The translations under genes and the position numbers were made by a program. DNA of 64,000 nt from Bacteroidaceae bacterium (GTDB lineage Bacteria > Bacteroidota > Bacteroidia > Bacteroidales > Bacteroidaceae), in contig JAFYNL010000017.1 in the NCBI GenBank assembly GCA_017548075.1, positions 1 through 64,000 of the forward strand. The letters run 5' to 3'. Shown here piece after piece: positions 2,160 through 60,478 of this stretch. The notes under the pieces are model-generated. The model was not told the DNA's origin, did not search any database, and saw only the letters and a program-made list of their open reading frames with translations. How positions within the stretch are numbered: position 1 is the stretch's first letter; every line of letters starts with the position of its first letter.

Positions 2160-2250
2160 AAGATAACGTGTTATGATGGCCAACGTAACACGTTATCTTT
2201 GTAAACGTAACACGTTAAGTTTGCCATCGTAACTGCAGTTGTTTTCAACC
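2160..2250 (+). repeat. 22-bp-periodic palindromic intergenic element, copy A
   Basis: First of eight related elements in the window. Cores of the TAACRYGTTA type start at 2164, 2186 and 2208, exactly 22 bp apart, and a half core (TAACTGCAGTT) follows at 2230, again 22 bp on. The first core reads TAACGTGTTA and the next two TAACACGTTA, so this copy mixes core orientations. The spacers are T-rich with TTTGC/TTTGT. It lies between the TlpA gene and the blaI-type gene, both on the + strand. Confidence 0.85.
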
Positions 2251-2262
2251 TCAAAATCCCGT

Positions 2263-2302
2263 ATTACTACGAATAACTGTTCAATTACTACAAATAAACG
2301 TT
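2263..2302 (+). promoter_or_regulatory. Tandem 19-bp direct repeat, candidate BlaI-type operator
   Basis: ATTACTACGAATAACTGTT (2263-2281) and ATTACTACAAATAAACGTT (2284-2302) are near-identical direct repeats offset by 21 bp, so they fall on the same face of the helix. They lie 64-103 bp upstream of the promoter box of the BlaI-like gene. TACTAC is the half-site of known MecI/BlaI operators, which makes autoregulation plausible. The operator role is inferred. Confidence 0.5.
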
Positions 2303-2365
2303 AAAAAACGGGGAATTTCGAAAGTTTTCAATATCTAAAGATTGCGATATTCAGAAAAACTCCCT

Positions 2366-2373
2366 TACTTTGC
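2366..2373 (+). promoter_or_regulatory. -7 promoter box for blaI/M56 pair
   Basis: TACTTTGC matches the Bacteroidetes housekeeping -7 box (TAnnTTTG). A TTG at 2342 lies at about the right distance for the -33 box. Because the box covers the upstream in-frame TTG at 2370, translation must start at the ATG at 2400. Confidence 0.65.
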
Positions 2374-2399
2374 TCTCGAAAACCAAACAATTGTGCAAT

Positions 2400-2783
2400 A
2401 TGAAACGCAAGGACAACACACTCACTAAGGTTGAGTTCGAGGTGATGAACATCCTTTGGGATATTCAGAACGGGGCTTGTGCGTGGGACATTCTAGACCG
2501 TTGCGAAGAGCCGAAACCTGCTTACACAACGGTTGCGACCTATCTGAAAGTGCTCTACGAGAAAGGCTATCTCGACTTCCACAAAGTCGATGGACAAGGG
2601 AAAACGCATCGTTATGTACCTCTTGTAACTCGCGCAGAATATACACGCAGAACAATGCAGGAAGTGAAGAAGAACTTCTTTGGAGGCAGCGTGAAGTCGA
2701 TGCTCAGCTACTTCGTCCACGAAGAAAACCTCTCACCAAACGAAGTCAAGGAGTTGCTGGAGTTGACTCAGGAGTCTAAATAA
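2400..2783 (+). CDS. BlaI/MecI-family winged-helix repressor
   Basis: A transcriptional repressor of 127 residues. The N-terminal winged helix (about 7-75, including LTKVEFEVMNILWDI and AYTTVATYLKVLYEKGYL) is the Penicillinase_R fold, and the C-terminal helices (about 85-127) would dimerise. Family members bind operators with TACA-type half-sites and are inactivated by cleavage when the partner membrane protease senses a signal. The partner M56 gene follows 34 bp downstream. The start is the ATG at 2400 because a promoter box overlaps the earlier in-frame TTG. No beta-lactamase is nearby, so the regulon is probably something else, such as a cell-envelope response. Confidence 0.92.
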   Translation: MKRKDNTLTKVEFEVMNILWDIQNGACAWDILDRCEEPKPAYTTVATYLKVLYEKGYLDFHKVDGQGKTHRYVPLVTRAEYTRRTMQEVKKNFFGGSVKSMLSYFVHEENLSPNEVKELLELTQESK

Positions 2784-2817
2784 ACTGTAAATCGCAAATC
2801 GTCAAAAAGTAAAAGTC

Positions 2818-4647
2818 ATGATGTCTGCTTTGTTACTTTACTCCATAAAGTCGGCTTTGGTGCTGACGATGCTGTATCTGCCTTATATGCTGATGCTTAG
2901 GCGTGAGAGTTTCTTCCGCTTCAATCGTCTGATATTGCTGGGAATCTTGCTTTTGTCGCTCGCTTTGCCGCTTTGCAACGTGCCTTGGATGTCACTCGAC
3001 CACCAGCCAGTAGTTCAAGCAGCTCAGCTTCAGATGCTCGAGTTGGGCATTCCTGTTCATGTTCTTCCTGAGGTTCAAGTGGTTGCAGACGGAGCCGTGA
3101 GTCAGCAGACCTCTCGTTTCAGCGTCTTCTTCCTCGTGAGTCTTATATATATAATAGGTATGGTGGTTCTGCTCGTTGCAAGATTTTGGCAGATTGGCAG
3201 GCTGCATTTCGGACTGCACAAAGGTGTTCTCTGGAAGCAGGATGAACAGGGCGTTCGCGTCTACTGCCACGCAGAAGATGTGTCTCCATTCAGTTGGATG
3301 AGGAACATCGTTATCAGCAAGAAGGACTTCGACGAGGCTGGTCGCGAGATTATGTTGCACGAAATGGGCCACATACAGAACTGTCACTCTTGGGATGTTG
3401 TGTTGCTCACCCTCGTACAGATGCTTCAATGGTGGAATCCGCTTGCTTATGTGCTGGGCATCAGCCTTCGTGATGTGCACGAATACGAAGCCGACGATTA
3501 TGTCCTGAGGCAGGGAGTTTCGGCTCAGAACTACCAGTTATTGCTCATAAAAAAAGCCGTTGGCTCAGGTTCCTACGCTTTTGCCAACAGCTTTAACCAT
3601 AGTTTAACTAAAAAACGTATCACTATGATGAAGAAAATTAAGTCAAATCCGTGGATGAGGAGCAAAGCGCTCTATGTCATCCCTGTAGCTGCTTTGGCAC
3701 TCAGTGCCTTTGCTACACCCAAGTTCGTCGCTCCTGTTGAGGAAGCAGTAACTAAACTCGAGGGCAAAGATACGGAACTTTCCGCAAACTTGCAAGCTTT
3801 AGAGGAAGAAAAAGAGAAAATTGAGGTTAAAGAGATTACTGGCGAAGCTGCAGCAAGCGTCGATGAAGCTCTGGAGAAGGACCTTGATAAAGCTCCTGAG
3901 AAAACACAGCCTCTGATTGTTCTCAACGGTCAAATCTTTGAAATACCTAAGGATGCGCTGAAGAACATCAACAAGGAGGAGCAGCTTACGAAACTTCTTA
4001 ATATCAATCCTGAGGATGTCGAGAGCATTTTCGTGCTTCAGAAGGAGGCCGCCGTTTCCAAATATGGTGACAAAGGTTCCAATGGTGTCATCGAAATTAA
4101 CACCAAGAAGAAAGATGACGTCAAGGAACTCGTAAAGAAACTGCCTGGAGCAGAGATGGACGAAGACGGCAATATTAAAATCAACGGCAAGAGCGTCGCC
4201 AAGATTATGGTCGATGGCAGGGAAGCCTTCAACATAGGGGACAGCATCTTTAACGTTCCTGCTGTGAATGCCAAGTATCCTGGTGGTGAAGGCGAGATGT
4301 TTAAGTTCATCTCGATGAATGTCCGCTATCCGAAGCTCTGCAAGGAGTTTGGTGTGCAGGGTCGTGTTCTCGTTAACTTTGTGATAGAGAAGGACGGCAG
4401 CATTACGGAAATCAACAAGCTAAAGTGCCCTGGAATGGAGCTCTCTCAAGTTGATGTGGTTTCCTACAAGGAGAAGAATCCTGAAAGTACAGAAGAACTC
4501 AAGGAAGGTCAAGACTTAGGAGAGTTGCTTTACGAAGAAGCAGTTCGTGTCTTGAAGCTCATGCCGAAGTGGGAGCCTGCTAAGGATAAGGACGACAACA
4601 TCGTGCGCAGTCGCTTCGTCCTGCCCTTCATGTTCCGCCTCAACTAA
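2818..4647 (+). CDS. M56/BlaR1-like membrane metalloprotease with plug-like and TonB C-terminal regions
   Basis: Integral membrane sensor-protease of 609 residues. Transmembrane segments lie at about 5-25, 36-53, 102-122 and 283-300. The M56 zinc motif HEMGH is at 181-185 and the third ligand is in HEYEAD (Glu224), so the protease looks active. It should cleave the BlaI-type repressor encoded just upstream. After the last membrane segment come a charged linker, a short region resembling a TonB-receptor plug (ESIFVLQ...KYGDKGSNGVIEI, about 400-425), and a TonB C-terminal-like domain (about 490-609, with VQGRVLVNFVIEKDG). This architecture is known in Bacteroidetes; the periplasmic domains probably sense envelope ligands. 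ATG codons at 2818 and 2821 are both possible starts. Confidence 0.9.
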   Translation: MMSALLLYSIKSALVLTMLYLPYMLMLRRESFFRFNRLILLGILLLSLALPLCNVPWMSLDHQPVVQAAQLQMLELGIPVHVLPEVQVVADGAVSQQTSRFSVFFLVSLIYIIGMVVLLVARFWQIGRLHFGLHKGVLWKQDEQGVRVYCHAEDVSPFSWMRNIVISKKDFDEAGREIMLHEMGHIQNCHSWDVVLLTLVQMLQWWNPLAYVLGISLRDVHEYEADDYVLRQGVSAQNYQLLLIKKAVGSGSYAFANSFNHSLTKKRITMMKKIKSNPWMRSKALYVIPVAALALSAFATPKFVAPVEEAVTKLEGKDTELSANLQALEEEKEKIEVKEITGEAAASVDEALEKDLDKAPEKTQPLIVLNGQIFEIPKDALKNINKEEQLTKLLNINPEDVESIFVLQKEAAVSKYGDKGSNGVIEINTKKKDDVKELVKKLPGAEMDEDGNIKINGKSVAKIMVDGREAFNIGDSIFNVPAVNAKYPGGEGEMFKFISMNVRYPKLCKEFGVQGRVLVNFVIEKDGSITEINKLKCPGMELSQVDVVSYKEKNPESTEELKEGQDLGELLYEEAVRVLKLMPKWEPAKDKDDNIVRSRFVLPFMFRLN

Positions 4648-4684
4648 CGCCACAGGTTTTAAAAGTTAATAAATCGGCGCCATC

Positions 4685-4726
4685 CTGCTCCTTCGTTGAG
4701 AAACGGAGGAGCAGTTCTTTTTCTTA
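4685..4726 (+). terminator. Rho-independent terminator after the M56 gene
   Basis: CTGCTCC and GGAGCAG form a GC-rich stem, extended inward by TCGTT/AACG pairing around a GAG-containing loop, and are followed by a T-rich run (TTCTTTTTCTT). It starts 38 bp after the stop codon and precedes the ftsY promoter. Confidence 0.8.
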
Positions 4727-4776
4727 ATAAAGAATAAAATAATGTCAAATCTTGCGATGAATTGGGGATTTTTTGC

Positions 4777-4784
4777 TATATTTG
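4777..4784 (+). promoter_or_regulatory. -7 promoter box for ftsY
   Basis: TATATTTG matches TAnnTTTG, with a TTG at 4752-4754 at -33 spacing. It lies 26 bp before the ATG at 4810 and supports that start over the earlier in-frame TTG at 4762. Confidence 0.7.
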
Positions 4785-4809
4785 CACACGAAACAAAGCA
4801 AGAAAAGAT

Positions 4810-5766
4810 ATGGGACTCTTTAACTTCTTTAGCAAAGAGAAAAAGGAAACGCTCGACCAAGGGCTTGAGAAAACGAAGGAAAGCTTTTTGGGTAAGTTGA
4901 CGAGAGCCGTTGCTGGTAAGTCGAAGGTGGATGATGAAGTGCTCGACAACCTTGAGGAAGTGCTTGTGACGAGCGATGTTGGAGTGGATACAACACTAAA
5001 CATCATCAAGCGCATCGAAGCAAGAGTGGAGCGGGATAAGTACGTCACAACCGACGAACTGAATGGCATTTTACGCGATGAAATCGCACAATTGCTCACG
5101 GAAAACAACACCGACGACACCGAAGGCTTTCAGATTCCTGCGGACAAAAAACCGTATGTCATCCTTGTTGTGGGTGTGAATGGAGTGGGCAAGACGACCA
5201 CTATCGGCAAACTTGCCTACCAGTTCAAGGAGGCAGGACTCAAAGTTTGTCTTGGTGCTGCCGATACTTTCAGAGCTGCTGCCGTTGAGCAGATAAGCAT
5301 TTGGGGTGAGAGGATTGGCGTTCCCGTCATCAAACAGAAGATGGGAAGCGACCCTGCAAGTGTGGCTTACGACACTTTGAATAGTGCGATTGCAAACCAG
5401 ATGGATGTTGTTCTCATCGATACTGCAGGCCGACTCCACAATAAGAAGGGCCTCATGGATGAGCTTACGAAGATTAAGAGGGTGATGCAGAAGCTGATGC
5501 CTGATGCTCCTCATGATGTTATGCTTGTCCTCGATGGCAGTACTGGCCAGAATGCTTTCGAGCAGGCAAAGCAGTTCACGTCTGCCACAGAAGTCACCAG
5601 TATGGCCATCACCAAACTCGATGGCAGCGCAAAGGGTGGGGTAGTGATTGGTATCAGTGACCAATTCAAGATTCCTGTTCGCTACATCGGCCTCGGAGAA
5701 CGAGCCGAAGACCTCCAGCCCTTCAATCGCAGAGAGTTCGTTGACTCGCTGTTCAAGCAATCATAA
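4810..5766 (+). CDS. ftsY: Signal recognition particle receptor FtsY
   Basis: GTPase receptor for the signal recognition particle, which delivers ribosomes making membrane proteins to the Sec translocon. It has 318 residues. A short charged N-terminal region and the helical N domain (about 20-95) precede the G domain with GVNGVGKT (122-129), DTAGR (204-208) and TKLDG (268-272). The GVVIGISDQFKIPVRYIGLGE segment is typical of SRP GTPases. The long acidic A domain of E. coli FtsY is missing, as in many Bacteroidetes. The start at 4810 follows the promoter box at 4777. rimO follows 10 bp downstream. Confidence 0.97.
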   Translation: MGLFNFFSKEKKETLDQGLEKTKESFLGKLTRAVAGKSKVDDEVLDNLEEVLVTSDVGVDTTLNIIKRIEARVERDKYVTTDELNGILRDEIAQLLTENNTDDTEGFQIPADKKPYVILVVGVNGVGKTTTIGKLAYQFKEAGLKVCLGAADTFRAAAVEQISIWGERIGVPVIKQKMGSDPASVAYDTLNSAIANQMDVVLIDTAGRLHNKKGLMDELTKIKRVMQKLMPDAPHDVMLVLDGSTGQNAFEQAKQFTSATEVTSMAITKLDGSAKGGVVIGISDQFKIPVRYIGLGERAEDLQPFNRREFVDSLFKQS

Positions 5767-5776
5767 CCTTCCTTTC

Positions 5777-7090
5777 ATGAAGCGCAACTGCATAGATATC
5801 ATTACTCTTGGCTGCAGCAAGAACCTTGTTGACAGCGAGAAGCTCATTCACCAACTTGAGTTGAACGGCTTCGAGGTGACGCATGATGCTGAAGACCCCA
5901 AGGGTGAGATAGCTATTGTGAATACTTGCGGTTTCATCGGTGATGCCAAAGAGGAAAGCATCAACATGATTCTCGAACTAGCTCAACGCAAACAAAAAGG
6001 TAAGCTCAAGCAGCTAATCGTGATGGGTTGCCTGTCTCAACGCTATTTGCAGGAGTTGAAGGTGGAACTTCCGGAAGTAGATTGCTTTTATGGCAAGTTT
6101 GATTGGGAGCAGATTATCACAGACCTGAAGGGCACTTATCACAAGGAAGCCTGCAACGAACGCAGGTTGACGACGCCTTCGCACTATGCCTATCTGAAGA
6201 TAAGTGAGGGCTGCAATCGCCATTGTGCCTATTGTGCCATTCCCATCATCACAGGCAAGCAAAAGTCCCATTCCATCAAGGAAATCGTGGCTGAAGTGGA
6301 GAGTTTGGTGGCAAAGGGAGTGAAGGAGTTTCAAGTGATTGCCCAAGAGTTGACGGGCTACGGCACAGACCTTTATGGCAAGCAGATGATAGCGCCGCTT
6401 ATCGAACGCATTGCCGAGGTTCCGGGAGTGGAATGGATCAGGCTTCACTATGCTTATCCGACCAACTTCCCAATGGAACTTCTGCAGGTCATGAAGCGTC
6501 ACAAGAACGTCTGCAAGTATCTCGACATCGCCCTTCAGCATATCTCCGACAGCCAGCTCTCGGCTATGAGGCGACACATCAATCGTCAGCAGACCTACAA
6601 CCTCATCGAAACCATTCGCCGAGAAGTGCCTGGCATTCATCTTCGCACAACCCTGATGGTCGGCTTCCCTGGTGAAACTGAGGAGGATTTCAAGGAGTTG
6701 CTCGATTTTGTGAAGTGGGCGAAGTTCGAAAGAATGGGCGCTTTTGCCTATAGCGAAGAGGAAGGAACCTACGCTGCAGAGCATTACAAAGACGATGTTT
6801 CAGAGGAAGTGAAGCAGGTTCGCCTAAGTAAGTTGATGCGGCTCCAGCAGCAGATTAGCGAAGAGGTTCAGCAAAGCAAAGTCGGTCAGACTCTGAAGGC
6901 CATCATCGATAGAGAAGAAGGCGATTACTTCATTGGCCGAACTGAGTTCGATTCCCCAGAAGTTGACCCCGAAGTGCTCTTCAAGAAGACCGATTCGCCC
7001 AACCTAAAACCAGGAATGTTCGTCCAAGCAAAGATAGAAAATGCCGATGAATTCGACCTTTATGCTCGGATAGAAGAACGAACAAATTGA
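5777..7090 (+). CDS. rimO: Ribosomal protein S12 methylthiotransferase RimO
   Basis: Radical-SAM enzyme that methylthiolates a conserved aspartate of ribosomal protein S12. It has 437 residues. The N-terminal UPF0004 domain carries the auxiliary-cluster cysteines Cys13 (LGCSKNLVDSE), Cys51 and Cys85. The radical-SAM motif is at Cys146, Cys150 and Cys153 (GCNRHCAYC), and the C-terminal TRAM domain ends the protein. LGCSKNLVDSE separates RimO from MiaB. The ATG at 5777, just after the ftsY stop, fits the family start (MKRNCIDIITLG). It is probably co-transcribed with ftsY. Confidence 0.97.
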   Translation: MKRNCIDIITLGCSKNLVDSEKLIHQLELNGFEVTHDAEDPKGEIAIVNTCGFIGDAKEESINMILELAQRKQKGKLKQLIVMGCLSQRYLQELKVELPEVDCFYGKFDWEQIITDLKGTYHKEACNERRLTTPSHYAYLKISEGCNRHCAYCAIPIITGKQKSHSIKEIVAEVESLVAKGVKEFQVIAQELTGYGTDLYGKQMIAPLIERIAEVPGVEWIRLHYAYPTNFPMELLQVMKRHKNVCKYLDIALQHISDSQLSAMRRHINRQQTYNLIETIRREVPGIHLRTTLMVGFPGETEEDFKELLDFVKWAKFERMGAFAYSEEEGTYAAEHYKDDVSEEVKQVRLSKLMRLQQQISEEVQQSKVGQTLKAIIDREEGDYFIGRTEFDSPEVDPEVLFKKTDSPNLKPGMFVQAKIENADEFDLYARIEERTN

Positions 7091-7111
7091 TTAACTTATA
7101 ACCTCAAACAT

Positions 7112-7387
7112 ATGAACAACAAAGAATTTATTGCCGACTTGGCGAATCGCACCAAGTTAGGAAGCAGAGAAGTCACTTCGTTGGTGAGTGCCACAGTTTC
7201 TGCTATCATTAGTGAACTAAAGGAGGAGAACACGATAACTGTTCCCGGATTCGGTTCTCTCGAAGTGAAAAAGAAGTTGGAAAGGGTGTTGGTTAATCCC
7301 ACGACCAAGCAAAGAATGCTTATTCCGCCTAAGATGGTGGTGAACTTCAAACCAAATACTTCGTTGAAATCAAAGGTTAAAAATTAA
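7112..7387 (+). CDS. HU family DNA-binding protein
   Basis: Histone-like protein of 91 residues, the usual HU/IHF length. It has the N-terminal helical dimerisation part (NKEFIADLANRTKLGSREVTSLV) and the beta-arm region starting TVPGFGSLEVKKK. The arm is short and lacks the usual RNP run, reading TTKQRMLIPPKMVVNFKP instead. It follows rimO by 21 bp and precedes, by 12 bp, a second HU-type protein that carries a membrane anchor; the pair may form heterodimers (inference). Confidence 0.93.
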   Translation: MNNKEFIADLANRTKLGSREVTSLVSATVSAIISELKEENTITVPGFGSLEVKKKLERVLVNPTTKQRMLIPPKMVVNFKPNTSLKSKVKN

Positions 7388-7399
7388 GATTTAGGCACT

Positions 7400-8350: not shown

Positions 8351-8371
8351 TATTCAAACAAAAGAAACAAA

Positions 8372-8386
8372 TTTAACAAAGTTAAA
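8372..8386. promoter_or_regulatory. Perfect dyad upstream of moxR
   Basis: TTTAACAAAGTTAAA is a perfect 6-3-6 inverted repeat, 55 bp upstream of the moxR -7 box. It may be an operator; this AT-rich motif could also be chance. Confidence 0.3.
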
Positions 8387-14227: not shown

Positions 14228-14338
14228 AAAAACAACCCCAGTTACGTTTGCAAACATAACACGTTAACTTTGCAAACTTAACACGTTAAAATCGTCAACA
14301 TAACACGTTACGTTTGGCAACGACCCTAGCATAGTTGA
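14228..14338 (+). repeat. 22-bp-periodic palindromic intergenic element, copy B
   Basis: One of the best-preserved copies. TAACACGTTA cores start at 14257, 14279 and 14301. The left end AACAACCCCAGTTACGTT (14231-14248) and the right end (AACGACCCTAG, from 14319) are inverted relatives. It fills the 138-bp gap between the BatB-BatC gene and batD, 12 bp after one stop and 15 bp before the next ATG, inside an apparent operon. Confidence 0.9.
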
Positions 14339-14353
14339 AAGAGACACCATAAG

Positions 14354-16198
14354 ATGAAAAGACTTTACACGATATTCGTTCTAATCCTTCTTGCGTTAAG
14401 TCCTGTCTTTCCGCAAGTTACACTCAAGGTTCAGGCTCCTGCTCAAGCCGAAGTTGGGCAGAGAATCCGCATCAGTTATGTGGCCAACACTCAGGACATA
14501 GAAGACTTCCAAGTCGGAAACTTCGAGGGTTTCAATGTCCTTTATGGTCCGAGCACAAGTCGTTCGAGCAACATTTCGATTGTGAATGGCCGAACAACTC
14601 AGAGTAGTACGGTAACCTTCACTTATACCGTCGTTCCCACTTCGGAAGGAACTCTCAAGGTGCCTGCAGCAACTATCAAGGTCGATGGAAAGGCCATCAA
14701 GAGCGGCTCGCCAAGTATGGAGGTGCTTCCTGCAAGCCAACAACAAAGTCAGCAACCTCAGAATCAACAACAAAACACAAATCCTCGCCAACAGCGTCAG
14801 CAACAAAGTGCTGGTAGTAATGGTCAAATCGCTGGTAATGAACTCTATATGACCGTTACTGCCAATCGAAAGAAGATTTATGAGCAAGAGGCTGTAATGC
14901 TTACTTACAAGCTTTACACTTTGGTGAACATCCAGCAAATTTCAGGCGAAATGCCTCAGATTGATGGTTGTCACGTTCAAGAACTTGATAGAGCCGCTCA
15001 AATGACGCTCAAGTACGAACGCGTTAATGGCAGGAACTATGGCACAGCCGTCTGGAAGCAATACGTCATCTTCCCGCAAAAGACGGGCAAGATCACGATT
15101 CCCAGCATTACTTTTGACACGCAAGTCGAGGTTCAGAACCACTCGATGGACCCCTTCGACATCTTCTTTGGAGGAGGAAGTCTCTCGCAAATGGTGCGTA
15201 AAGAGATTAAGACATCTCCCGTCGAAATTGAGGTTATGCCCCTTCCAACGCCAAAGCCCGCCAACTTCTCGGGTGCCGTAGGTAAGTTCTCTGTGTCTGC
15301 TTCTCTCACTCCCGACCAGGTGAATGCGAACGATGCTGCAACCTTGAGACTCGTCGTAAGCGGTCAAGGCAACATGAAACTCATGAAGGCTCCGACCATT
15401 CGATTCCCTCAAGACTTCGAAGTCTATGACCCCAAGGAGAACAATAAAACGTCGAATACGGCTACAGGCTCAAAAGGAAACATCATCTACGACTATGTCG
15501 TTGTTCCTCGTCACGGCGGAAAATTCTCGATTCCACCGGTTGAATTCTGTTATTTCGACCCCGATCAAGCCAAATACAATACGGTTCGAACGGACTCTTT
15601 CCATCTCGCTGTTGCCAAAGCAAAAGGTCAGCCAGTCGCTTACTCTCGCGAACAAGAGGATCTTAATGTGCTAAGTAACGATATTCGTTTCATCAAATTG
15701 GGTGAGTTGGAGAGCGAAGAGAAGGATGATTTCTTCGGAACTTCCTCATATTGGCTTACTTATCTGCTTCTCTTCCTTGCTTTCATTGCTGCTTTCCTCT
15801 GGTTGAGAAGGCAACAGAAACTCAATCCGAACTCTTGGAGTGTGAAGGGAAAGAAGGCAGGCAAAGTGGCTTCTCGTCGACTCAAAAAGGCTTCGAAGCT
15901 CATGCACAATAAGGACGATGCCACTTTCTATGATGAAGTAATGCGTGCTTTGCTGGGTTATGCAGGCGACAAACTTTCCTTGCCAACCAACGAACTCAAT
16001 AAGGAGAACGTTATCAGCAAACTTACATCGAGAGGCGTAGAACAGAATGTTGTCGATTCCTTCATAGCAGTTTTGAGCGATTGTGAGTTTGCTCGCTATG
16101 CTCCAACTGCCGATGCGAACCTTGCAAAAGAGAAGATTTATCAGCAGGCTTCAGATGTGATTACGCAGATGAATGCCTCGCTCAAGTCACACAAATAA
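14354..16198 (+). CDS. batD: BatD family protein (oxygen tolerance)
   Basis: A 614-residue protein of the Bat cluster. It has a signal peptide (about 1-21, ending SPVFPQ), a first beta-sandwich region (about 22-125), a Gln-rich linker (about 128-158), further beta-rich periplasmic domains with BatD-typical GNGQ-like turns ([13 protein letters not shown]), a membrane helix at about 465-487 ([18 protein letters not shown]) and a C-terminal cytoplasmic helical domain. The function is inferred from the operon: it probably forms an envelope complex with BatA, BatB/C and BatE. Confidence 0.92.
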
Positions 16199-24035: not shown

Positions 24036-24160
24036 TTACAACTGCAAGGTCGTAGCCAAACGTAACACGTTAAGTTCGCCAACTTAACACGTTAACTTTG
24101 CAATCGTAACACGTTAACTTTGCCAACGACACTGGGGTTGTTTGCAAACGACTCTAGTTA
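24036..24160 (+). repeat. 22-bp-periodic palindromic intergenic element, copy C
   Basis: TAACACGTTA cores start at 24063, 24085 and 24107. The right end AACGACACTGGGGTTGTT (24125-24142) is close to the reverse complement of copy B's left end. The left end is weaker (CAACTGCAAGGTCGT). It fills the convergent gap between uvrD (+) and the ClC gene (-). I see no other terminator there. Confidence 0.9.
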
Positions 24161-30542: not shown

Positions 30543-30660
30543 CGGTTGTGATGCATGCAGGTGTAAAGGCAAACGCAACACGTTATGTTTCCAAACGTAA
30601 CACGTTAAGTTTGCTATCGTAACACGTTATCTTTGCCCATCCTGATATCAGTCGTTTGGA
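30543..30660 (+). repeat. 22-bp-periodic palindromic intergenic element, copy D
   Basis: Cores start at 30576 (CAACACGTTA), 30598 and 30620 (both TAACACGTTA). The outer ends have diverged. The right end runs through the stop codon (30648-30650) of the convergent gene, so the element contributes the last codons of that gene. Confidence 0.85.
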
Positions 30661-36471: not shown

Positions 36472-40242
<3,771 letters not shown>

Positions 40243-40260
<18 letters not shown>

Positions 40261-41400
40261 TCCCTCTTCAGGAACCCATTCCTCGGCAGGCTTGACGACA
40301 CTCTTGTATTCGCCGTCCTTAAGGCTCTTCCTGGCTGGTGCCGGCGTACTGCTACTACTGTAAGAACGGGCACTTCCTCGATATTGATTCCATCGGTTCA
40401 TGATGAGTCGGACATAAGCCTCCGTCTCGCTTCCACGCATATAACCGTTCAAAACATCCGGATCTCGGTAGTATTGGGGCTCGGAAAGGTGCAGAATAAA
40501 GGGGGCTACATCTTGCCAGACTTGATGATTTCGCCCGTTCTTTCGAGCCAAAGTCTGAGCATCTTGAACGTGCCCAACGCCTCCATTATAGGCCGCAAGC
40601 GTGAATCGGATACGCTCTTCGCCGTCCTTAATGTCCGCAAACGACTGGCTGACCTTCCTGATATAACGAGCCGAAGCCGAAATGTTCTGCTCTGGATCGA
40701 ACCGTTTATCCCTGGGAACTCCCATTGCATCTGCAGTCGAGGGCATCAACTGCATGAGTCCCATCGCTCCCATCGAAGAGACTGCATTGGGGTCGAAACC
40801 TGATTCCTGATAACATATCGCAGCCAAAAGTCGCCAATCCCAACCGGCAGAACTACTGTATTTGCGAAAGAGATCGTCGTAGGCGGAGATAATTCCGTGA
40901 GCGGCATCCTGCATGACTGGCCGCATTCGACGTTTCACAGTAACGGTCACATTGTTGGCCTTACTCTCAATTTGATGAATGCGTTCAGGCTTCCACCACT
41001 CTGCAATCGCCTTTTTCAGTAGGGATTCACCCTCTCGAACCTGCCATTTCGGCATTTCGAGGGCAATGAAGTCAATCTCTCCAGCCTCCAATCTCTTCAA
41101 AAGAGTCGCGGTATCAGGGGAAATCTCCATTTGTACGACGACTCCGATACTTTGTGCAAAGGCTTCTGCAAGCTTGAATTGCAGGCCCATTCCTTTGCCG
41201 TGATACTCGTAATAAGTGTCTGGCCCGCTCAAAGTTCCCGCAATAATCGTACCGCTAGCCTGTATTTCGTGGAGGTCGTAATACTGCAAAGTGTCCGTCT
41301 TCTCTTCTTCTGTCGCAAAGAGAACAGAAGTGTCTTTCTCCTGTTTAACGGTACAAGCGACAAACAGGAAAAGCAGAGAAAAGACGACAGAATACTTCAA
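40243..41400 (-). CDS. MltF-like lytic murein transglycosylase, lipoprotein
   Basis: A peptidoglycan-cleaving enzyme of 385 residues. It has a lipoprotein signal (FLFVAC, Cys16) and an N-terminal solute-binding-protein-like domain (about 45-155: SGTIIAGTLSGPDTYYEYHG, GLQFKLAEAFA). The C-terminal SLT domain has catalytic Glu199 in ICYQESGFDP, followed by GAMGLMQLMP and AAYNGGVGH. The start is a TTG at 41400; an in-frame stop lies shortly upstream and no ATG fits. The last three codons and the stop (NDPS region) lie inside repeat element E. Confidence 0.92.
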
Positions 41401-47315: not shown

Positions 47316-47591
47316 CAAAAAAAATAGGAATATAGAAAGAAGAAACGAAGATTTATTTGAGCGAAATGAAAAAAACAGTTGTGGTATTCGAGTGGATTCG
47401 GCATTGTTTTGTAAAGATTTTGGTGAGGTGAGTGAGTGGAATTAAAGTGGCTCTCTAACTGACTTCGCTTTGAGGAAAGGGGAGAGGGGAATGAGTTTTT
47501 GCCCCTCGAAAAGAGCTAGAAAAGGTAAGATTTCAGGCCTCTCGTAACCCCTTAATACAGAGTCTATTACAAGACAGCTAAGATAAATTGA

Positions 47592-47718
47592 AAATGACGG
47601 CAGTTAAGTTGGCCGATTTAACGTGTTACGTTTGCATTTTTAACGAGTGAAGTTGACCAACTTAACGAGTGAAGTTTGCAATCTTCACAGGTTAACTTTT
47701 GAAACTTCACTAAGGTCT
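47592..47718 (-). repeat. 22-bp-periodic palindromic intergenic element, copy F (diverged)
   Basis: The most diverged copy. Starts at 47619 (TAACGTGTTA), 47641 and 47663 (both TAACGAGTGA) keep the exact 22-bp spacing, and a fourth related block (TTCACAGGTTA) follows at 47684. The left end CAGTTAAGTTGGCC is recognisable. It is the only copy in a divergent intergenic region. Confidence 0.8.
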
Positions 47719-47864
47719 CGAACCCTTTTAACCTTTTGCGTTGGAAATCCTGTCGAGTTAAAGTCGCCGATTTTGTCAAGATATTTTCTTCGCTCGAAAA
47801 GTTTGTCCCACTCTTTTAGCTCAAATTAATCGATAATCTTCTTTATTTATTCAGCAGAAATTAG

Positions 47865-54446: not shown

Positions 54447-54457
54447 ACCGGACAAAT

Positions 54458-55255
54458 ATGAAACACATACTCTATACCATTGCCGCACTCTTTGTTTTTG
54501 CAGCATCAATACAAGCTCAAGAAGAGGATTCTTGGGAGAAGTGGGGGCCAACGACTGGACTTAAAGACGGCGGCTTTATTGCTCGAGTTGGTTATGTCTT
54601 AGGCGGAACCACACCAATTCCCTTGCCTGCAGAGATAAGAAAGGTGAACGGCTTTAGTCCCAGAGGCGGAATAAGTCTGGGAATAGATGGCTACAAGATG
54701 TTTTCGAAACGTTGGGGCGTTAGTGCCGGAGCACACTTCTTCTGGGAAGGGTTTCACACGAATGCAGATGTCAAGAACTACTATGTGTGGCTTGAGCAGG
54801 AAGGTGAGGTTACGAAAGGCTACTTCACAGGTACCAATGTCACAAGCACGGAAATGTGGGGCGTAACACTTCCCTTGCTTGCCACCTTCAGAATGAGCCC
54901 GAGATGGAACGTCAGCGCTGGTCCTTATCTGAGTCTTTACTTCCATCAAACGTTTTCGGGTGAGGTTTTCGACAATGACGAGGGCGTAGGTTATTTGCGA
55001 GAAGATACGCCGACAGGCACCAAGATTCTGATGACAAGAGAGAATCCGACTCCCTATCCCGACAACTTTCCTGAGAAGATGCAGCCTGTAGCTCTTGGCA
55101 TAGAGATTGCTTTCGACTGGAAAGCCATGAAACACATGAACGTCTTTGGTCTTCTCGACTGGGGTATGACAGATATTTGGGATCGCAATTTCGAGGCTAT
55201 CACCTTCAAGATGTATCCCATCTATGCCACTGTTGGTTTAGCTTACAGATATTAA
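54458..55255 (+). CDS. Outer-membrane beta-barrel protein
   Basis: A 265-residue protein with a signal peptide (MKHILYTIAALFVFAASIQAQ) and alternating amphipathic strands (WNVSAGPYLSLYFHQTFSG, YATVGLAYRY at the C terminus, ending on an aromatic residue). It belongs to a general OmpW/PorT-like group of Bacteroidetes barrels; no enzyme motif is visible. It probably forms a unit with the PCMD lipoprotein upstream. Confidence 0.82.
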   Translation: MKHILYTIAALFVFAASIQAQEEDSWEKWGPTTGLKDGGFIARVGYVLGGTTPIPLPAEIRKVNGFSPRGGISLGIDGYKMFSKRWGVSAGAHFFWEGFHTNADVKNYYVWLEQEGEVTKGYFTGTNVTSTEMWGVTLPLLATFRMSPRWNVSAGPYLSLYFHQTFSGEVFDNDEGVGYLREDTPTGTKILMTRENPTPYPDNFPEKMQPVALGIEIAFDWKAMKHMNVFGLLDWGMTDIWDRNFEAITFKMYPIYATVGLAYRY

Positions 55256-55261
55256 GGGAAC

Positions 55262-55374
55262 AAACGCAGGCAGTTACGATGTCAAACGTAACACGTTAAG
55301 TTGGGCAACTTAACACGTTAACTTTGCAAACATAACACGTTAAGTTTGCATTTTAACCTAGGTGTGTTTGAAGA
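55262..55374 (+). repeat. 22-bp-periodic palindromic intergenic element, copy G
   Basis: TAACACGTTA cores start at 55289, 55311 and 55333. The left end CAGTTACGATGTC and right end TTTTAACCTAGGTGTGTTTG are diverged but recognisable. It fills the whole 121-bp convergent gap between the beta-barrel gene (+) and the DUF1846 gene (-). Confidence 0.9.
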
Positions 55375-55376
55375 GA

Positions 55377-56840
55377 CTATACCTTCTTGACTGGATCGCA
55401 AGTAAGGTCGACGCCTAACTTCTTGAAAATCTTACGGTCAACCTCGCCAAGCATAATGGTTGTGTGTGCTTGCAGACCAGCCAAGCTGGGCAGTTGTGCG
55501 AGGGCTCTTCGGCAGTTCTCATCCTGACGACTCAATACACTCAAAGCCACAAGAACTTCGTCGGTATGCAGACGAGGGTTGTGTCCACCTAAGTATTCTA
55601 TCTTTGTGCGTTGAATAGGTTCGATGAAGTCCTGCGAAATGAGCTTGAGTTCGTGGTCGATACCTGCAAGATGCTTGGTGGCATTAAGCAGGAGTGAAGA
55701 CGCAGTACCAAGCAGAGGAGAGGACGCAGCCGTAATGATGGTGCCATCTTCGAGTTCCATAGCTGACGATGGAACGCCAGATTCTTCTTTTCTCTTGCGG
55801 GCTTCAACAGTCACTTTACGGTCGTCGGTACTGATTTTTGCCTGTTTCAGGAGCAAGTCAATCTTGTTTACTTCGGCATCGTTAATAGCTCCGTCGGCCA
55901 TTTGATTGAGGGCTGTGTAGTAACGACGGATGATTTCGTCCTTACCTGCTTGCTGGCAAACCTTGTCATCACAAATGCAGAAGCCCACCATATTCACACC
56001 CATATCGGTCGGCGACTTGTAGGGACACTCGCCATAAATGCCTTCGAAGAGGGTGTTCAAGACTGGGAATATCTCCACATCTCGGTTGTAGTTGATGGCC
56101 ACTTTATTGTAGGCATCCATGTGGAAGGGGTCGATCATATTGACATCACCCAAGTCGGCTGTGGCAGCTTCGTAGGCAATATTGACAGGATGCTTGAGAG
56201 GAAGGTTCCAAACAGGGAAGGTCTCGAACTTCGCATAACCAGCTTCGATTCCTCTTTTACGTTCAGCATAGAGCTGACTCAAGCAGACGGCCATCTTGCC
56301 ACTACCAGGACCTGGAGCCGTTACGATAACAAGAGGCCGAGTTGTCTCCACATAATCGTTCTTGCCGAAGCCTTCGTCGGAATTAATCAACTGTACATTA
56401 TTGGGATAACCCTCAATATTATAATGGTAGTAGGCACGAATGCCGAGATGCTCCAAGCGACGGCGATAGATGGCGGCACTACTTTGTCCGTTGTAATGAG
56501 TTATGACTACGCCGTTCACAAGAAAACCTCGCTTCTGGAATTCATTGCGCAGTCGAAGTACATCTTCATCGTAGGTGATGCCCAAGTCTTGACGGACTTT
56601 GTTTTTCTCAATGTCGAGAGCACTAATGACGATTACTATTTCGGCGCTTGAGCTGAGCTGTTGGAACATCCGCAGCTTGCTGTCAGGCTGGAAACCAGGC
56701 AACACTCTACAGGCATGATAGTCGTCGAAAAGCTTGCCGCCAAGCTCCAGATAGAGCTTTCCTGAGAACTGAGCGATACGCTCTTGAATGTGCTGCGACT
56801 GAATGGAAATGTATTTGTCGTTGTCGAAACCGTACTTCAT
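55377..56840 (-). CDS. DUF1846 family protein
   Basis: A 487-residue cytoplasmic protein. DUF1846 is a widespread family of solved but uncharacterised proteins with a nucleoside-binding-like fold. The characteristic VTAPGPGSGKMAVCLSQLY segment (about 180-198) resembles a P-loop. The ATG at 56840 is chosen because the promoter box (56869-56876) lies too close to the longer reading start. The gene stands alone in its own unit. Confidence 0.9.
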   Translation of the reverse strand: MKYGFDNDKYISIQSQHIQERIAQFSGKLYLELGGKLFDDYHACRVLPGFQPDSKLRMFQQLSSSAEIVIVISALDIEKNKVRQDLGITYDEDVLRLRNEFQKRGFLVNGVVITHYNGQSSAAIYRRRLEHLGIRAYYHYNIEGYPNNVQLINSDEGFGKNDYVETTRPLVIVTAPGPGSGKMAVCLSQLYAERKRGIEAGYAKFETFPVWNLPLKHPVNIAYEAATADLGDVNMIDPFHMDAYNKVAINYNRDVEIFPVLNTLFEGIYGECPYKSPTDMGVNMVGFCICDDKVCQQAGKDEIIRRYYTALNQMADGAINDAEVNKIDLLLKQAKISTDDRKVTVEARKRKEESGVPSSAMELEDGTIITAASSPLLGTASSLLLNATKHLAGIDHELKLISQDFIEPIQRTKIEYLGGHNPRLHTDEVLVALSVLSRQDENCRRALAQLPSLAGLQAHTTIMLGEVDRKIFKKLGVDLTCDPVKKV

Positions 56841-56868
56841 CTTGGTGCCCTTTTTTGTTTTCAAAGCA

Positions 56869-56876
56869 CAAAGGTA
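56869..56876 (-). promoter_or_regulatory. -7 promoter box for the DUF1846 gene
   Basis: Reads TACCTTTG on the - strand, 28 bp before the ATG at 56840. Confidence 0.65.
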
Positions 56877-56931
56877 CGAAGAAAATTAGAAAATTAAGGA
56901 AGAAGAGAACAAGAATTTGAAGAAAAAAGTG

Positions 56932-56939
56932 TAATTTTG
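56932..56939 (+). promoter_or_regulatory. -7 promoter box for the HD-domain gene
   Basis: TAATTTTG, 9 bp before the ATG at 56949. The earlier in-frame TTG at 56937 lies inside this box. Confidence 0.6.
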
Positions 56940-56948
56940 TGCAAGTTT

Positions 56949-57482
56949 ATGGTAGAGGAATTAATTCATAAGTATTGCGAAGGCAACAAGCCGTTGGAGG
57001 AGTTGCTCCTTCGGCATAGTGGTGATGTGGCTCGTCGTGCTCTTCTGATAGCCAAGAAACATCCCGAATTGGGGGCAGACGAAACCTTTCTTTGGGAAGC
57101 CGCAATGTTGCATGATATCGGGAATGTTCGCGTAAATGCTCCTTCCATCCATTGCTTTGGCACAGAGCCTTACATCTGTCACGGCATTCTTGGAGCTGAA
57201 ATCTTGCGTAATGAAGGCCTTCCTCGGCATGCTCGAGTGGCAGAACGGCACACGGGTACAGGCCTTACTGCAAGCGAGATAGAGCATCAGAACCTGCCCC
57301 TTCCTCATCGAGATTTCAGGCCTGAAACTATCGAAGAACAAATCGTTTGTTATGCCGACAAGTTCTACTCCAAGTCTCGTCCCGAAATAGAAAAGACTCC
57401 GGAACAGGCTTTGCGCAGTTTGGAGAAGTTTGGTAGCGAGGGTTTGGACGTCTTCAAGGCCTGGATGGCTCGCTTTGAGTGA
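56949..57482 (+). CDS. HD-domain phosphohydrolase
   Basis: A 177-residue HD-superfamily metal hydrolase. The metal ligands are His23 (LLRHSGDVARRA), the HD pair His55-Asp56 (AAMLHDIGN), and a later aspartate in VCYADKFYSK. Such proteins cleave phosphomonoesters or phosphodiesters of nucleotides; the substrate is unknown. The ATG at 56949 fits the family and the promoter. Confidence 0.9.
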   Translation: MVEELIHKYCEGNKPLEELLLRHSGDVARRALLIAKKHPELGADETFLWEAAMLHDIGNVRVNAPSIHCFGTEPYICHGILGAEILRNEGLPRHARVAERHTGTGLTASEIEHQNLPLPHRDFRPETIEEQIVCYADKFYSKSRPEIEKTPEQALRSLEKFGSEGLDVFKAWMARFE

Positions 57483-57532
57483 AAAAATCATAATAATAAA
57501 AGGAAAAGACGTAAAGTCTCGGAAAATAATCT

Positions 57533-57540
57533 TACCTTTG
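57533..57540 (+). promoter_or_regulatory. -7 promoter box for lptD
   Basis: TACCTTTG, 24 bp before the TTG start at 57565. Confidence 0.65.
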
Positions 57541-57564
57541 CAAATTGGAATAATTGTATAGCAA

Positions 57565-60342
57565 TTGAAGGCAAGACTATTATCGATACTGACGGCTTGT
57601 TATGTGCTGGCATCATTGGCGGCCCGTCCTACAGGAAGAATGTTCTTCCTGCGGGGAGACGTTGATTCGCTTTTGAGGGACAGCATTCCTTTGCGTCCTT
57701 ATACCATCTTGCCCGATACTGTGCCAGAAGATACTGTGGCTGTCGATACGACTCGAAAGAGCAAGAATGCCCTCGATATGCCCGTCACCTATTCAGCCAA
57801 AGACTCTATTACCTTCGATTATGGTCGTTCTCGAGCCCATCTCTATGGCGAAAGTAAGGTTCAGTACCAGAATCTGGAACTCGAGGCCGAGATTATCAAT
57901 ATCTCCATCGACAGCAGTCTTGTGCACGCTAGCGGCAGAACCGATTCCACGGGAAATGTTAAGGGCAAGCCTCTCTTCCGCCAGGGGAGAGATGAATACG
58001 AGCCTGATAGCATCAGTTACAACTTCAAGACGCGCAAAGCCTTCATTTCCAATGTCTATACTCAGCAGGGAGAAGGCTACATGAAGAGTATGGATGGCAA
58101 GCGCGACAGTAGTGGAACGATGTATGTAAGGAAGGCATTCTATTCGACTTGCGATGCCCAACATCCTCATTTCTACTTGAATATGACCAGAGCCAAGATG
58201 CGTCCAGGCAAGGATGTGGTGTTCGGACCGACCTATCTGGTTGTTTGCGATGTGCCTTTACCCTTGGCTATTCCATACGGATTCTTCCCCTTTAAGAACA
58301 AGTACAGCAGCGGTTTCATCATGCCAAGCTATGGTGATGAGACTACTCGAGGTTTCTATTTGCGAGACGGAGGCTATTATTTTGCCTTCAACGACTATGT
58401 GGATGCTAAAGTTTTAGGTGAGATCTATACGAAAGGTTCTTGGGCTCTTTCCCTGCAATCCACTTATAGAAAGCGATACAAATTCAACGGAGGTCTTTTC
58501 GTAAGCTATCAACACACCCAAACTGGCGAGAAGAATATGCCCGATTTTACTGTTTCGAAGAGTTTCAAGATAGCTTGGACGCATCGTCAAGATGCAAAAG
58601 CCAACCCCACACAAACGTTTTCGGCCAGCGTTAACTTTGCTACAAGCAGTTACGAGCGCAACAATCTCACCAGTATGTACAATCCTGAGAGCTATACGCA
58701 AAGTACCAGAACAAGTAGTATAGCCTACAGTAAGTCCTTCCCAAATATAGGTCTGACGCTGAGTGCAACTCTCAACTTGGCTCAGAATATGCGTGATAGT
58801 AGTATTGCCCTCACTTCGCCCAACCTCACAATCCAGCTCAACCGCTTCTATCCCTTCAAGCGAAAGAAGGTGGCAGGCAAGGAAAGATGGTACGAGAAGA
58901 TTGGTATGAGCTACTCTGGTTCACTCACAAATACCATCAACACCAAAGAAGATATGCTCTTCAAGAGCAGTCTGGTGAAGGATTGGCGTAATGGTATGCG
59001 CCATCAAATCCCGATTAATGCGAACTTTACTGTGCTCAAGTACATCAACATCACTCCTGGCTTCAGCTTTACAGACCGCATGTATAGCAAGAAAGTCATG
59101 CAGTCGTGGGACGAAGAAGCTCAGAAAGTTCAGCGAGATACTGTGTTTGGCTTCTACAATGTCTACAACTTTAACATGAGTGTGGCTGCAAATACGAAGC
59201 TTTACGGCTTCTATACTCCCATGCCTTGGTTTGGCGGAAAGAAGATTAAAGCCATTCGACATGTGTTAACTCCCCAGGTATCTTTCAGTTATGCTCCTGA
59301 TTTCAGCACTTCAAACTGGGGCTTCTACGACACTTATGTCCGCACAGATTCCAAAGGAAACGTTTCCACAGTAACCTATTCTCCCTTTGCCGGAAGTGCT
59401 TACGGAACGGCTCCAAGTGCAAAGACGGGTAGTGTTCAGTTCGACGTCTCCAATAATCTTGAGATGAAAGTGCGTTCAGAGCGCGACTCGACGGGTGAGA
59501 AGAAGATCAGTCTTATTGATGAACTTGGTATGTCCATGAGCTATAATATGGCTGCGAAGCGAAAGCCTTGGAGCGATTTGAACATGCGAGTCCGCTTGAA
59601 ACTCTCGAAGAGTCACACTTTCTCCATGAATGCAGTCTTTGCCACTTATGCCTACGAGTTCAACCAGAGCGGGAATGTAGTTGTGGGAGACCATACTGAA
59701 TGGGGTAGAGGAAGGTTTGGCCGTTTCCAAGGTATGAGCCAGCATTGGTCCTGGACCTTCAACAACCAGACTCTCAAAAAGTTGTTGGGTATGAGGGATA
59801 AGTTGACGAATCGTTTCTCAGGTCAAGATGTTGATGACGAAGACGAAGATGAATACGACGACGATGAAGCAGATCCGACGATGCAGAACCTCGATCCTGA
59901 AAGGAAGAAAAGCAGGGATGCGGCTAAGGAAGAAGGTTCGAAAGACGTTGATGATGATGGTTACCTGAAGTTCCAACTGCCTTGGAGTCTTACAGTCAGC
60001 TATGGTGTTTCGATGAGGGAAAATACTGCGGCAAAGATCAATGTCAAACGAATGCGCTATCCTTACCGCTTCAACCAAACACTCAACTTCTCTGGAAACG
60101 TTCGCATAGCTGAGGGTTGGAACTTTAATTTCTCGTCGGGTTACGACTTCAACTACAAGAAGTTGAGTATGACGACTGTTTCTTTGGCTCGAGACCTCCA
60201 TTGCTTCACGATGTCTTGCAGTATGGTAATCTCTCCTTACACCAGTTTCAACTTCCTCTTTGCCTGCAAGGCCGGCACTCTTACAGACGCTCTTCGATGG
60301 AAGAAGCAAAGCTCCTACAGTAGTAATGTCGAGTGGTATTGA
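57565..60342 (+). CDS. lptD: LPS assembly protein LptD (Bacteroidetes type)
   Basis: A 925-residue outer-membrane beta-barrel that inserts lipopolysaccharide into the outer leaflet. It has a signal peptide (about 1-20), then a periplasmic OstA/LptA-like jelly roll (about 60-210: ITFDYGRSRAHLYGESKVQY, with Asp/Tyr-rich repeats). The barrel domain is large, with IPYGFFPFKNKYSSGFIMPS at its start. A very acidic insertion (about 755-795, QDVDDEDEDEYDDDEADP) interrupts the barrel. The start is a TTG at 57565; an in-frame TAG two codons upstream and the signal peptide leave no better choice. Confidence 0.92.
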   Translation: MKARLLSILTACYVLASLAARPTGRMFFLRGDVDSLLRDSIPLRPYTILPDTVPEDTVAVDTTRKSKNALDMPVTYSAKDSITFDYGRSRAHLYGESKVQYQNLELEAEIINISIDSSLVHASGRTDSTGNVKGKPLFRQGRDEYEPDSISYNFKTRKAFISNVYTQQGEGYMKSMDGKRDSSGTMYVRKAFYSTCDAQHPHFYLNMTRAKMRPGKDVVFGPTYLVVCDVPLPLAIPYGFFPFKNKYSSGFIMPSYGDETTRGFYLRDGGYYFAFNDYVDAKVLGEIYTKGSWALSLQSTYRKRYKFNGGLFVSYQHTQTGEKNMPDFTVSKSFKIAWTHRQDAKANPTQTFSASVNFATSSYERNNLTSMYNPESYTQSTRTSSIAYSKSFPNIGLTLSATLNLAQNMRDSSIALTSPNLTIQLNRFYPFKRKKVAGKERWYEKIGMSYSGSLTNTINTKEDMLFKSSLVKDWRNGMRHQIPINANFTVLKYINITPGFSFTDRMYSKKVMQSWDEEAQKVQRDTVFGFYNVYNFNMSVAANTKLYGFYTPMPWFGGKKIKAIRHVLTPQVSFSYAPDFSTSNWGFYDTYVRTDSKGNVSTVTYSPFAGSAYGTAPSAKTGSVQFDVSNNLEMKVRSERDSTGEKKISLIDELGMSMSYNMAAKRKPWSDLNMRVRLKLSKSHTFSMNAVFATYAYEFNQSGNVVVGDHTEWGRGRFGRFQGMSQHWSWTFNNQTLKKLLGMRDKLTNRFSGQDVDDEDEDEYDDDEADPTMQNLDPERKKSRDAAKEEGSKDVDDDGYLKFQLPWSLTVSYGVSMRENTAAKINVKRMRYPYRFNQTLNFSGNVRIAEGWNFNFSSGYDFNYKKLSMTTVSLARDLHCFTMSCSMVISPYTSFNFLFACKAGTLTDALRWKKQSSYSSNVEWY

Positions 60343-60347
60343 TGCTC

Positions 60348-60478
60348 GAAACTGGAGTCGTTTGGAAACACTCCCAGTTACGTTGGCAAACTTAACGTGT
60401 TACGTTGGCGATTTTAACGTGTTAAGTTTGCAAAGTTAACGTGTTACGTTTTGATTTTAACTGAGGATTGTTTTTCCG
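60348..60478 (-). repeat. 22-bp-periodic palindromic intergenic element, copy H
   Basis: Read on the - strand, TAACACGTTA cores lie at 60393-60402, 60415-60424 and 60437-60446. The left end CTCCCAGTTACGTTGGC and the right end TTAACTGAGGATTGTTTTT are related by inversion. It spans the convergent gap between lptD (+) and engB (-), starting 5 bp after one stop and ending at the other. Confidence 0.9.

Follow-up and report, generated by a model that had tools for sequence, protein, structure and literature searches.

Intergenic arrays of 22-bp near-palindromic units are evenly spaced and keep their places while their sequence changes in a Bacteroidaceae genome and some of its relatives

The stretch of DNA considered here, referred to below as the window, comprises the first 64,000 nucleotides (forward strand) of contig JAFYNL010000017.1, from the assembly GCA_017548075.1 of a Bacteroidaceae bacterium. 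It contains eight intergenic elements, each an array of near-palindromic units repeated at a strict period of 22 bp, and these belong to a family of hundreds of copies in the same genome. The arrays are evenly spaced in this genome and in two of its relatives, and they occupy conserved places at which the sequence of the unit, its "word", changes between species. That the spacing is even in three genomes whose words mostly differ, and that the places are retained, argues for selection on position, with the sequence being secondary, and an evenly spaced architectural or topological site is therefore favoured, albeit tentatively, as the function of the arrays.

The window is part of contig C8 of a 2.66-Mb (2657 kb), Prevotella-like, 88%-complete assembly (G000), and all of the assemblies analysed are drafts, mostly metagenomic. 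With up to one mismatch allowed, the core TAACACGTTA is matched 24 times in the window, against a mean of 1.66 and a maximum of 6 in 100 shuffles, and 22 of the 24 matches fall inside the eight elements, exactly 22 bp apart and at the positions first annotated. The initial annotation, which was based on the window alone, had proposed a single plan of near-palindromic units in intergenic locations, and this was supported. The three cores per element that it described are found in most copies, the copy at 47.6 kb being degenerate (one exact core and three weaker units), while the inverted ends, of the AACRACCCCAGTTA / TAACTGGGGTYGTT type, are clear in the better copies and nowhere else.

Detection in this genome relied mainly on a profile of the TAACACGTTA word, which recovered 57 elements when 461 kb were scanned and 72 when the scan was extended to 604 kb, from which a total of approximately 310–330 elements may be estimated for the whole genome. 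A sequence-free scan for intergenic tandem repeats (461 kb, lags of 8–59) returned 54 arrays at a lag of 22 and 25 at a lag of 44, a multiple of 22 (47 and 22, respectively, with a second window setting), and three or fewer at every other lag. Over the whole assembly there are 209 occurrences of the pair TAACACGTTA-N12-TAACACGTTA, and none of its reversed control.

The arrays are around 110 bp long, and three cores at 22-bp spacing are present in 35 of the 57 elements. In the profile, derived from units with an exact core, two inverted 11-bp half-sites (consensus GCMAWCDTAAC) flank a non-symmetric AC, and the orientation of the half-sites flips every 11 bp. Outside the cores, the columns are far less informative, and the arrays end in weak inverted units in the better copies, with no sharp boundary being visible by eye in the 14 best-matching pairs of copies. 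The element is, in short, an array in duplex DNA of approximately six 11-bp half-sites in alternating orientation, which form three near-palindromic units of 22 bp. Two elements of this genome, at C13:63675 and C15:60241, also have some 110 bp of non-array flank in common (a match of 162 bp at 85% identity), which contains GTACCTTTG and is perhaps a duplicated promoter region.

The 72 profile arrays are separated by 66 gaps with a mean of 7800 bp, a standard deviation (SD) of 2862 and a minimum of 3531, that is, a coefficient of variation (CV) of 0.37. Random intergenic positions matched for gap context, the null used throughout, give a CV of 0.77±0.07, and none of 2000 draws was as low; no gap is shorter than 3 kb, against a mean of 14.4 in the null. 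When a hard-core Poisson process was given this minimum, 7 of 5000 draws were as regular as the arrays of all the contigs together. In the two contigs that were added last, C20 and C17 (15 gaps, 20 kb of C20 having already been in the first set), the CV is 0.25 (0/2000), and the hard-core process was equally regular in 484 of 5000 draws when these two contigs were taken alone. Elements with the exact pair, among the matches listed, likewise show no gap below 3 kb (0/50, in 13 contigs that overlap the first set; minimum 3456).

The regularity is also found with a detector free of any word, and the relatives were searched with a detector based on period and dyad. In the 461 kb of the own genome the word-free detector returned 61 intergenic arrays with a CV of 0.48 (null 0.79±0.09, 1/2000), recovering 54 of the 57 profile elements and seven others, one of which lies beside a one-core element. 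In the 244,534-base contig of the relative G051, there are 31 intergenic arrays and 29 gaps (mean 7300, minimum 2650), with a CV of 0.46 against a null of 0.75±0.10 (0/2000), a close pair at 14640 and 14755 being counted once. In G011, the CV is 0.52 (null 0.82±0.12, 2/2000) with one microsatellite included and 0.49 without it (31 arrays, 30 gaps, mean 7924, minimum 2394). Candidates lying in genes were dropped (two in G051, one in G011 and five in G000), as was the microsatellite of G011, a heptamer repeat. The arrays are thus evenly spaced in all three genomes.

The exact TAACACGTTA pair is found in at least 63 stretches of public genomes among the matches listed, of which 62 belong to assemblies of Bacteroidales, for the most part from the rumen or other ruminant gut. 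Outside the Bacteroidales, the pair in contig L085 of Candidatus Avisuccinivibrio (approximately 3200–3240) is isolated, in a short gene-adjacent duplication, and was rejected as an array; the sole exact-pair match in IMG/VR (L208, 2467–2498) is, similarly, a short duplication before a gene rather than an element, and a viral origin was rejected. Within the genus, the exact pair is present in eight of 61 genomes, including the own genome, and the reversed control in one, G039, in which pairs of ATTGCACAAT, 12 bp apart, occur three times and may represent another array word.

The build of the arrays is more widespread than this word. The period-21/22 and dyad detector gave 95 hits across 22 genomes of the genus (1.08 Mb), 19 of which have one or more, where a single control lag averages 4.75. 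In other genera, 18 genomes (0.39 Mb) gave four hits, against 0.75, and two of these four lie in the sole genus of the same family. These counts still include in-gene hits and microsatellites. The centres of the arrays in the relatives include CCGC-GT-GCGG, CGAC-GT-GTCG, TCAC-GT-GTGA, CTGCAG and GGTTAACC, and the arrays of G012 have a period of 21 bp and the centre TTTTCA-N5-TGAAAA. Several unlike words may be found in a single genome: CCGC-GT-GCGG, TAAC-AC-GTTA and ATACATGTAT in G051, for example, and CACGTG, CTGCAG and GGTTAACC in G011. In some arrays (G051:C5 120512, 130746 and 139452; G026:C14 ~9685; G035:C4 ~15161), inner units centred on ATACATGTAT or TCATGATG are bracketed by GTTC...GAAC or similar within outer units of the normal kind, as though the array had had its middle swapped. 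At two loci of G012 (C1 84238/84400 and 96686/96848), a 21-bp array is followed 162 bp on by a second 21-bp repeat (GGACTTTCAAAATTTACAATC), which suggests a composite element.

The places of the arrays are kept while the words change. In syntenic gaps shared with six relatives (G051, G026, G035, G052, G011 and G023), an array is present in both genomes in 15 cases, only here in two, only in the relative in five, and in neither in 77. The gaps occupied here are, then, filled in the relatives in 15 of 17 cases, against five of 82 for those empty here (Fisher's exact test, 9e-12, for synteny pairs that are not independent, the 17 representing seven own loci, each occupied in at least one relative). 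With gaps of at least 90 bp only, the counts are 15, 2, 5 and 29 (Fisher 5e-7); G012 adds 0, 1, 0 and 12, for 15/18 against 5/94, and G113 provided no syntenic pair. After the lptD-type gene (element 8 in the table below), the array reads TAACGTGTTA here and CCGCGTGCGG in G051, with other words in G026, G035, G011 and G023; the corresponding gap of G012 is empty (14 bp), and no array was seen within the first 230 bp after this gene in G005, G034 or G052. In G006 (L162), the lptD-type gene is directly followed by a tandem repeat with a period of 11 bp (GCTATCGAAGG), where some relatives have 22-bp arrays. The turnover of the arrays is slow between close species, given that G011 and G023 (92% identical over 20 kb) have identical arrays at two of three loci and no change in the number of units at the third.

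Unlike types of array within a genome tend to keep apart, although this is only moderately supported. With types assigned by eye, none of the eight GGTTAACC-type arrays of G011 lies within 2.5 kb of the 23 others (circular shifts: mean 3.5, none in 396 of 10000; a cruder test with uniform placement: 1/20000), and in G051 one of 13 non-CCGC arrays lies within 2.5 kb of a CCGC array (mean 4.9, one or fewer in 62 of 10000 shifts). Given this avoidance, to which the mixed neighbours described below are exceptions, unlike arrays probably, though not certainly, count as the same thing.

The arrays are intergenic and show no strand preference. The 57 elements in the 461 kb are distributed in 29 tandem, 17 convergent and nine divergent gaps, with one in a predicted gene and one unassigned, which represents an occupancy of 17/34 convergent, 9/33 divergent and 29/239 tandem gaps. 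The neighbouring stop codon is less than 100 bp away in 46 of 63 cases, and the median length of the convergent gaps is 167 bp with an element and 62 bp without one. Relative to the tandem genes, the elements are oriented 15 one way and 14 the other. The largest array-free gap is found at 14.6–31.4 kb of C2, where 10 of the 13 predicted proteins were scanned, and none of the six with Pfam matches corresponded to a mobile-element family. The eight elements of the window are listed in the following table.

Array elements of the window, with the positions of their cores and their surroundings
Element	Position	Strand	Cores	Ends and neighbours	Syntenic gap
1	2141..2252	+	2164, 2186, 2208; first core inverted		
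2	14229..14336	+	14257, 14279, 14301	Left end AACAACCCCAGTTA; VWA/TPR gene, BatD gene	
3	24040..24159	+	24063, 24085, 24107	Right end ACACTGGGGTTGTTT; convergent, UvrD-type helicase / chloride channel	
4	30553..30660	+	30576 (1 mismatch), 30598, 30620	Convergent	
5	40145..40270	-	40178, 40200, 40222 (1 mismatch)	End units clear on both sides	
6 (degenerate)	47588..47721	-	47619 (exact); weaker units 47641, 47663, 47685	Divergent	Array in G051
7	55262..55377	+	55289, 55311, 55333	Convergent	Arrays in G051, G026, G052; none in G035
8	60350..60481	-	60393, 60415, 60437	Convergent, lptD-type gene / small GTPase gene	See text

The half-sites of the window elements (24063–24130, for example) read TAnnTTTG outward on both strands (TTAACTTTG, TTACGTTTG), which we take to be the -7 promoter word of the Bacteroidota; the resemblance may be a coincidence, and the CCGC arrays of G051 are without it by eye. 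Elsewhere in the window, the region 36472–40152 (-) encodes a GH2 protein of the beta-galactosidase type that carries a ricin-type lectin domain close to the N-terminus.

A palindromic array may act either as a duplex or as a folded strand, and the initial annotation had allowed for both. The elements do fold somewhat better than their shuffles: the mean z of the RNA is -2.2, with 54% of 70 strands below -2, and for the eight copies of the window DNA folding gives z values between -1.1 and -4.6, although the structures differ between copies, and no Rfam family matched the elements. Such an excess is what any palindromic repeat would give. Compensatory change is almost nil, given that, of 26 mirrored pairs of positions (144 units, 87 spacers), three pair above shuffled values at p<0.01 and several pair below them. 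The three are core 13-20 (0.0016), spacer 8-23 (0.001) and spacer 14-17 (0.004), of which spacer 8-23 represents the same two positions as core 13-20, taken between neighbouring units. Pairing across the dyad of the whole element in the 35 three-core elements is 0.522, against 0.530 when shuffled. Alternative letters recur at mirrored positions, yet they do so independently. At the more symmetric dyad, which was picked for its symmetry, the complementarity of the arms over 10 positions is greater within a unit than between units of one array by 0.25 in G000 (p = 0.0006), 0.23 in G051 (p = 0.04) and 0.48 in G011 (p = 0.003), and at the other dyad there is a deficit of -0.32, -0.63 and -0.36, respectively. 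Independent variation of the half-sites, with little covariation of the arms, fits half-sites read by a protein on the duplex rather than a selected hairpin, and an RNA or single-stranded DNA hairpin was rejected as the main function on the near-nil covariation, the deficit at the other dyad and the differing folds. These same observations favour, as indirect evidence, the cooperative duplex-binding protein envisaged at the outset.

The reading that we favour, without placing more than tentative weight on it, is that the arrays are architectural or topological sites on the duplex, bound by an oligomeric factor, and that they would mark evenly spaced units of chromosome organization. Three 22-bp units, closed on each side by a weaker inverted end unit in the better copies, would mark intergenic positions, at around one per 7.5 kb along the chromosome, where an oligomeric DNA-binding or architectural factor may load, and the loaded array would then bound or anchor a loop or supercoil domain. 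A single array would suffice for each domain, and close pairs would be selected against; the gaps downstream of genes, above all the convergent ones, may be used either because an array is least harmful in such places or because they are where supercoils meet. A role in chromosome organization was one of the options left open by the initial annotation, and it now leads on the strength of the even spacing and the change of words at kept places, neither of which was visible in the window alone. A bolder version, which is possible but somewhat more doubtful, is a chromosome-wide ruler in Prevotella-like bacteria, in which near-arbitrary, swappable tandem arrays of 21–22-bp near-palindromes would be held by selection at conserved, even places, around one per 7.5 kb in the clade sampled best, and would define the basic loop or topological domain, the build and position being read while the word turns over, perhaps together with a fast-evolving DNA-binding protein.

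A number of observations weigh against the preferred interpretation. No array-binding protein was found in this analysis, and the presence of multiple unlike words in one genome is odd if a single protein reads the sequence. Some unlike arrays are also close neighbours: in G051, a CCGC array (14755) lies approximately 100 bp from a non-CCGC array (14657), and in G011 two GGTTAACC arrays have core words of another type some 80–100 bp away. Nor is the spacing universal, given that G012 has one array per 15.7 kb (eight arrays in 120 kb, CV 0.36, 34/2000). Several of the seven additional hits of the word-free detector are AT-rich or microsatellite-like by eye, and when they are included four gaps fall below 3 kb. 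An A/T–G/C rhythm of about 11 bp, which gyrase could read on wrapping the DNA and which gyrase-type sites would be predicted to show, reaches a mean percentile of 0.67 in G000 and 0.34–0.57 in four other sets, and does not appear to be general. In addition, the sample covers 604 of the 2657 kb of G000 and, for G051 and G011, a single long contig apiece, with genes called by a home-made hexamer heuristic.

The principal alternative is that the arrays are selfish repeats, similar to repetitive extragenic palindromic (REP) sequences or miniature inverted-repeat transposable elements (MITEs), which would be spread by a transposase acting in trans, with target immunity and the recombinational loss of close pairs accounting for the evenness. 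The hundreds of similar copies would be expected in this case, the longer convergent gaps look as if a unit had been inserted, and some arrays of G051 hold an inner block with GTTC/GAAC ends. This option had also been left open by the annotation, and the palindromic, intergenic and multicopy nature of the elements agrees with it; the transposase does not, as the Y1 transposase of the RAYT type (PF01797) has no match in the 88%-complete own assembly (the control matched in five of 14 genomes), in a search that covered no other transposases, and a REP with its RAYT was rejected. The lack of sharp boundaries also argues against insertion, as do the places conserved between species in the six relatives and the lack of any movement or change in the number of units at the three loci of G011 and G023. 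Exclusion at a minimum distance, moreover, falls short of the regularity of G000 as a whole, though not of C20 and C17 alone. Taken together, this makes a selfish origin unlikely. The arrays might otherwise be the sites of an ordinary sequence-specific regulator, numerous by accident, as palindromic tandem operators are typical of dimeric regulators, but they favour 3' ends over promoters, are evenly spaced, differ in word within one genome, and are flanked, in the window elements scanned, by genes varied in kind, so that this account is very improbable.

Bidirectional intrinsic terminators, or stabilizers of the 3' ends of RNAs, would explain the proximity to stop codons, the high occupancy of convergent gaps, the folding excess, and the frequent presence of GCGGCGTTTT at the end of the CCGC arrays of G051. 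The terminator was also an option of the annotation, and it fared poorly, as T-runs past the edges of the elements are at background (41/114, against 39% in random array-free intergenic windows), terminator-like matches in 19 kb of the window number 19, with 18.7 expected by chance, and one of the 19 falls within an element, and a minimum spacing of 3.5 kb is not predicted by termination. Intrinsic termination was rejected on the T-runs, and both hairpin RNAs and terminators are disfavoured because compensatory pairing is near absent, the elements are oriented without regard to transcription, and there is no enrichment of T-runs. We consider this whole class of explanations, a putative RNA stabilizer included, improbable. 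Little more can be said for DNA-uptake or mate-recognition sequences, that is, a species word gathered by uptake bias, with a drive that fades once each fragment has one copy, which we regard as a similarly poor prospect. Like the uptake sequences of the Pasteurellaceae and Neisseriaceae, the arrays have many copies, species dialects, strand symmetry and even spacing, the last claimed for uptake sequences by Karlin et al., as cited in the available part of PMC1939737; a ComEC-family gene is present, the sole competence-type gene found, and the one element queried had no match in phage or plasmid records. Uptake sequences are, however, single, short, non-palindromic motifs, denser than the present arrays and often found in open reading frames (65% in H. 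influenzae and 35% in N. gonorrhoeae, according to the same part of PMC1939737), whereas here arrays of ~110 bp occur once per 7.8 kb, with one of 57 in a predicted gene. Several unlike words per genome would be ill-suited to one uptake receptor, and the change of words at conserved places also argues against uptake.

It has long been asked how the bacterial chromosome is divided into domains and if sequence sets their boundaries. If the architectural reading is true, a set of sites that change in sequence yet keep their places at a near-constant spacing would provide a direct, countable handle on this question, with arrays that can be deleted, moved or swapped, and a bound factor that may be retrieved by means of array DNA. 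Hundreds of dispersed sites whose word changes while their place and build stay the same would also be a rare case, which raises the question of the co-evolution of the sites and their reader.

Among known systems, matS/MatP and Noc/SlmA are networks of dispersed palindromic sites bound by chromosome-organizing proteins, with far fewer sites and a fixed sequence. The own assembly has a single ParB_N match, whereas a Noc-type network would call for a second ParB-like protein (Noc), and a Noc-like ParB network was rejected as an explanation. The initial annotation knew of no described family with this plan, and no description of it was found in the literature searched, most subscription journals being outside its coverage. 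The nearest Bacteroidales repeats found are BrickBuilt and PINSR, which differ in unit, ends and copy number or in their lack of arrays. BrickBuilt of Porphyromonas gingivalis (19 copies of 84–991 bp, with IS5-like terminal repeats, a leader and a tail, according to the available part of PMC4596501) is also intergenic, with a short tandem unit (23 nt) and inverted ends; judged by that description rather than by alignment, the present elements differ in having mostly three cores, no IS-like ends seen, and hundreds of copies. PINSR of Prevotella intermedia, at 188 bp and without terminal inverted repeats, is set apart by its description, in which, as far as the available text of PMC4755523 extends, neither a 22-bp array nor even spacing appears. 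REP sequences and bacterial interspersed mosaic elements (BIMEs) are similar in being short, palindromic, intergenic and present in many copies, with a suggested topological role. Their palindrome lies beside a GTAG/CGTC tag, and CGTC-tagged repeats are known from some Bacteroidetes (both according to the available part of PMC3733652); no such tag is seen on reading the own-genome profile, and the RAYT gene is missing from the assembly. The strict 22-bp lattice of half-sites and the change of words at fixed places also distinguish the arrays, for which the even spacing may be a further difference. BIME-2 elements are enriched in gyrase cleavage sites, according to the available part of PMC6379681, and gyrase-type sites are the nearest functional analogy to the arrays described here.

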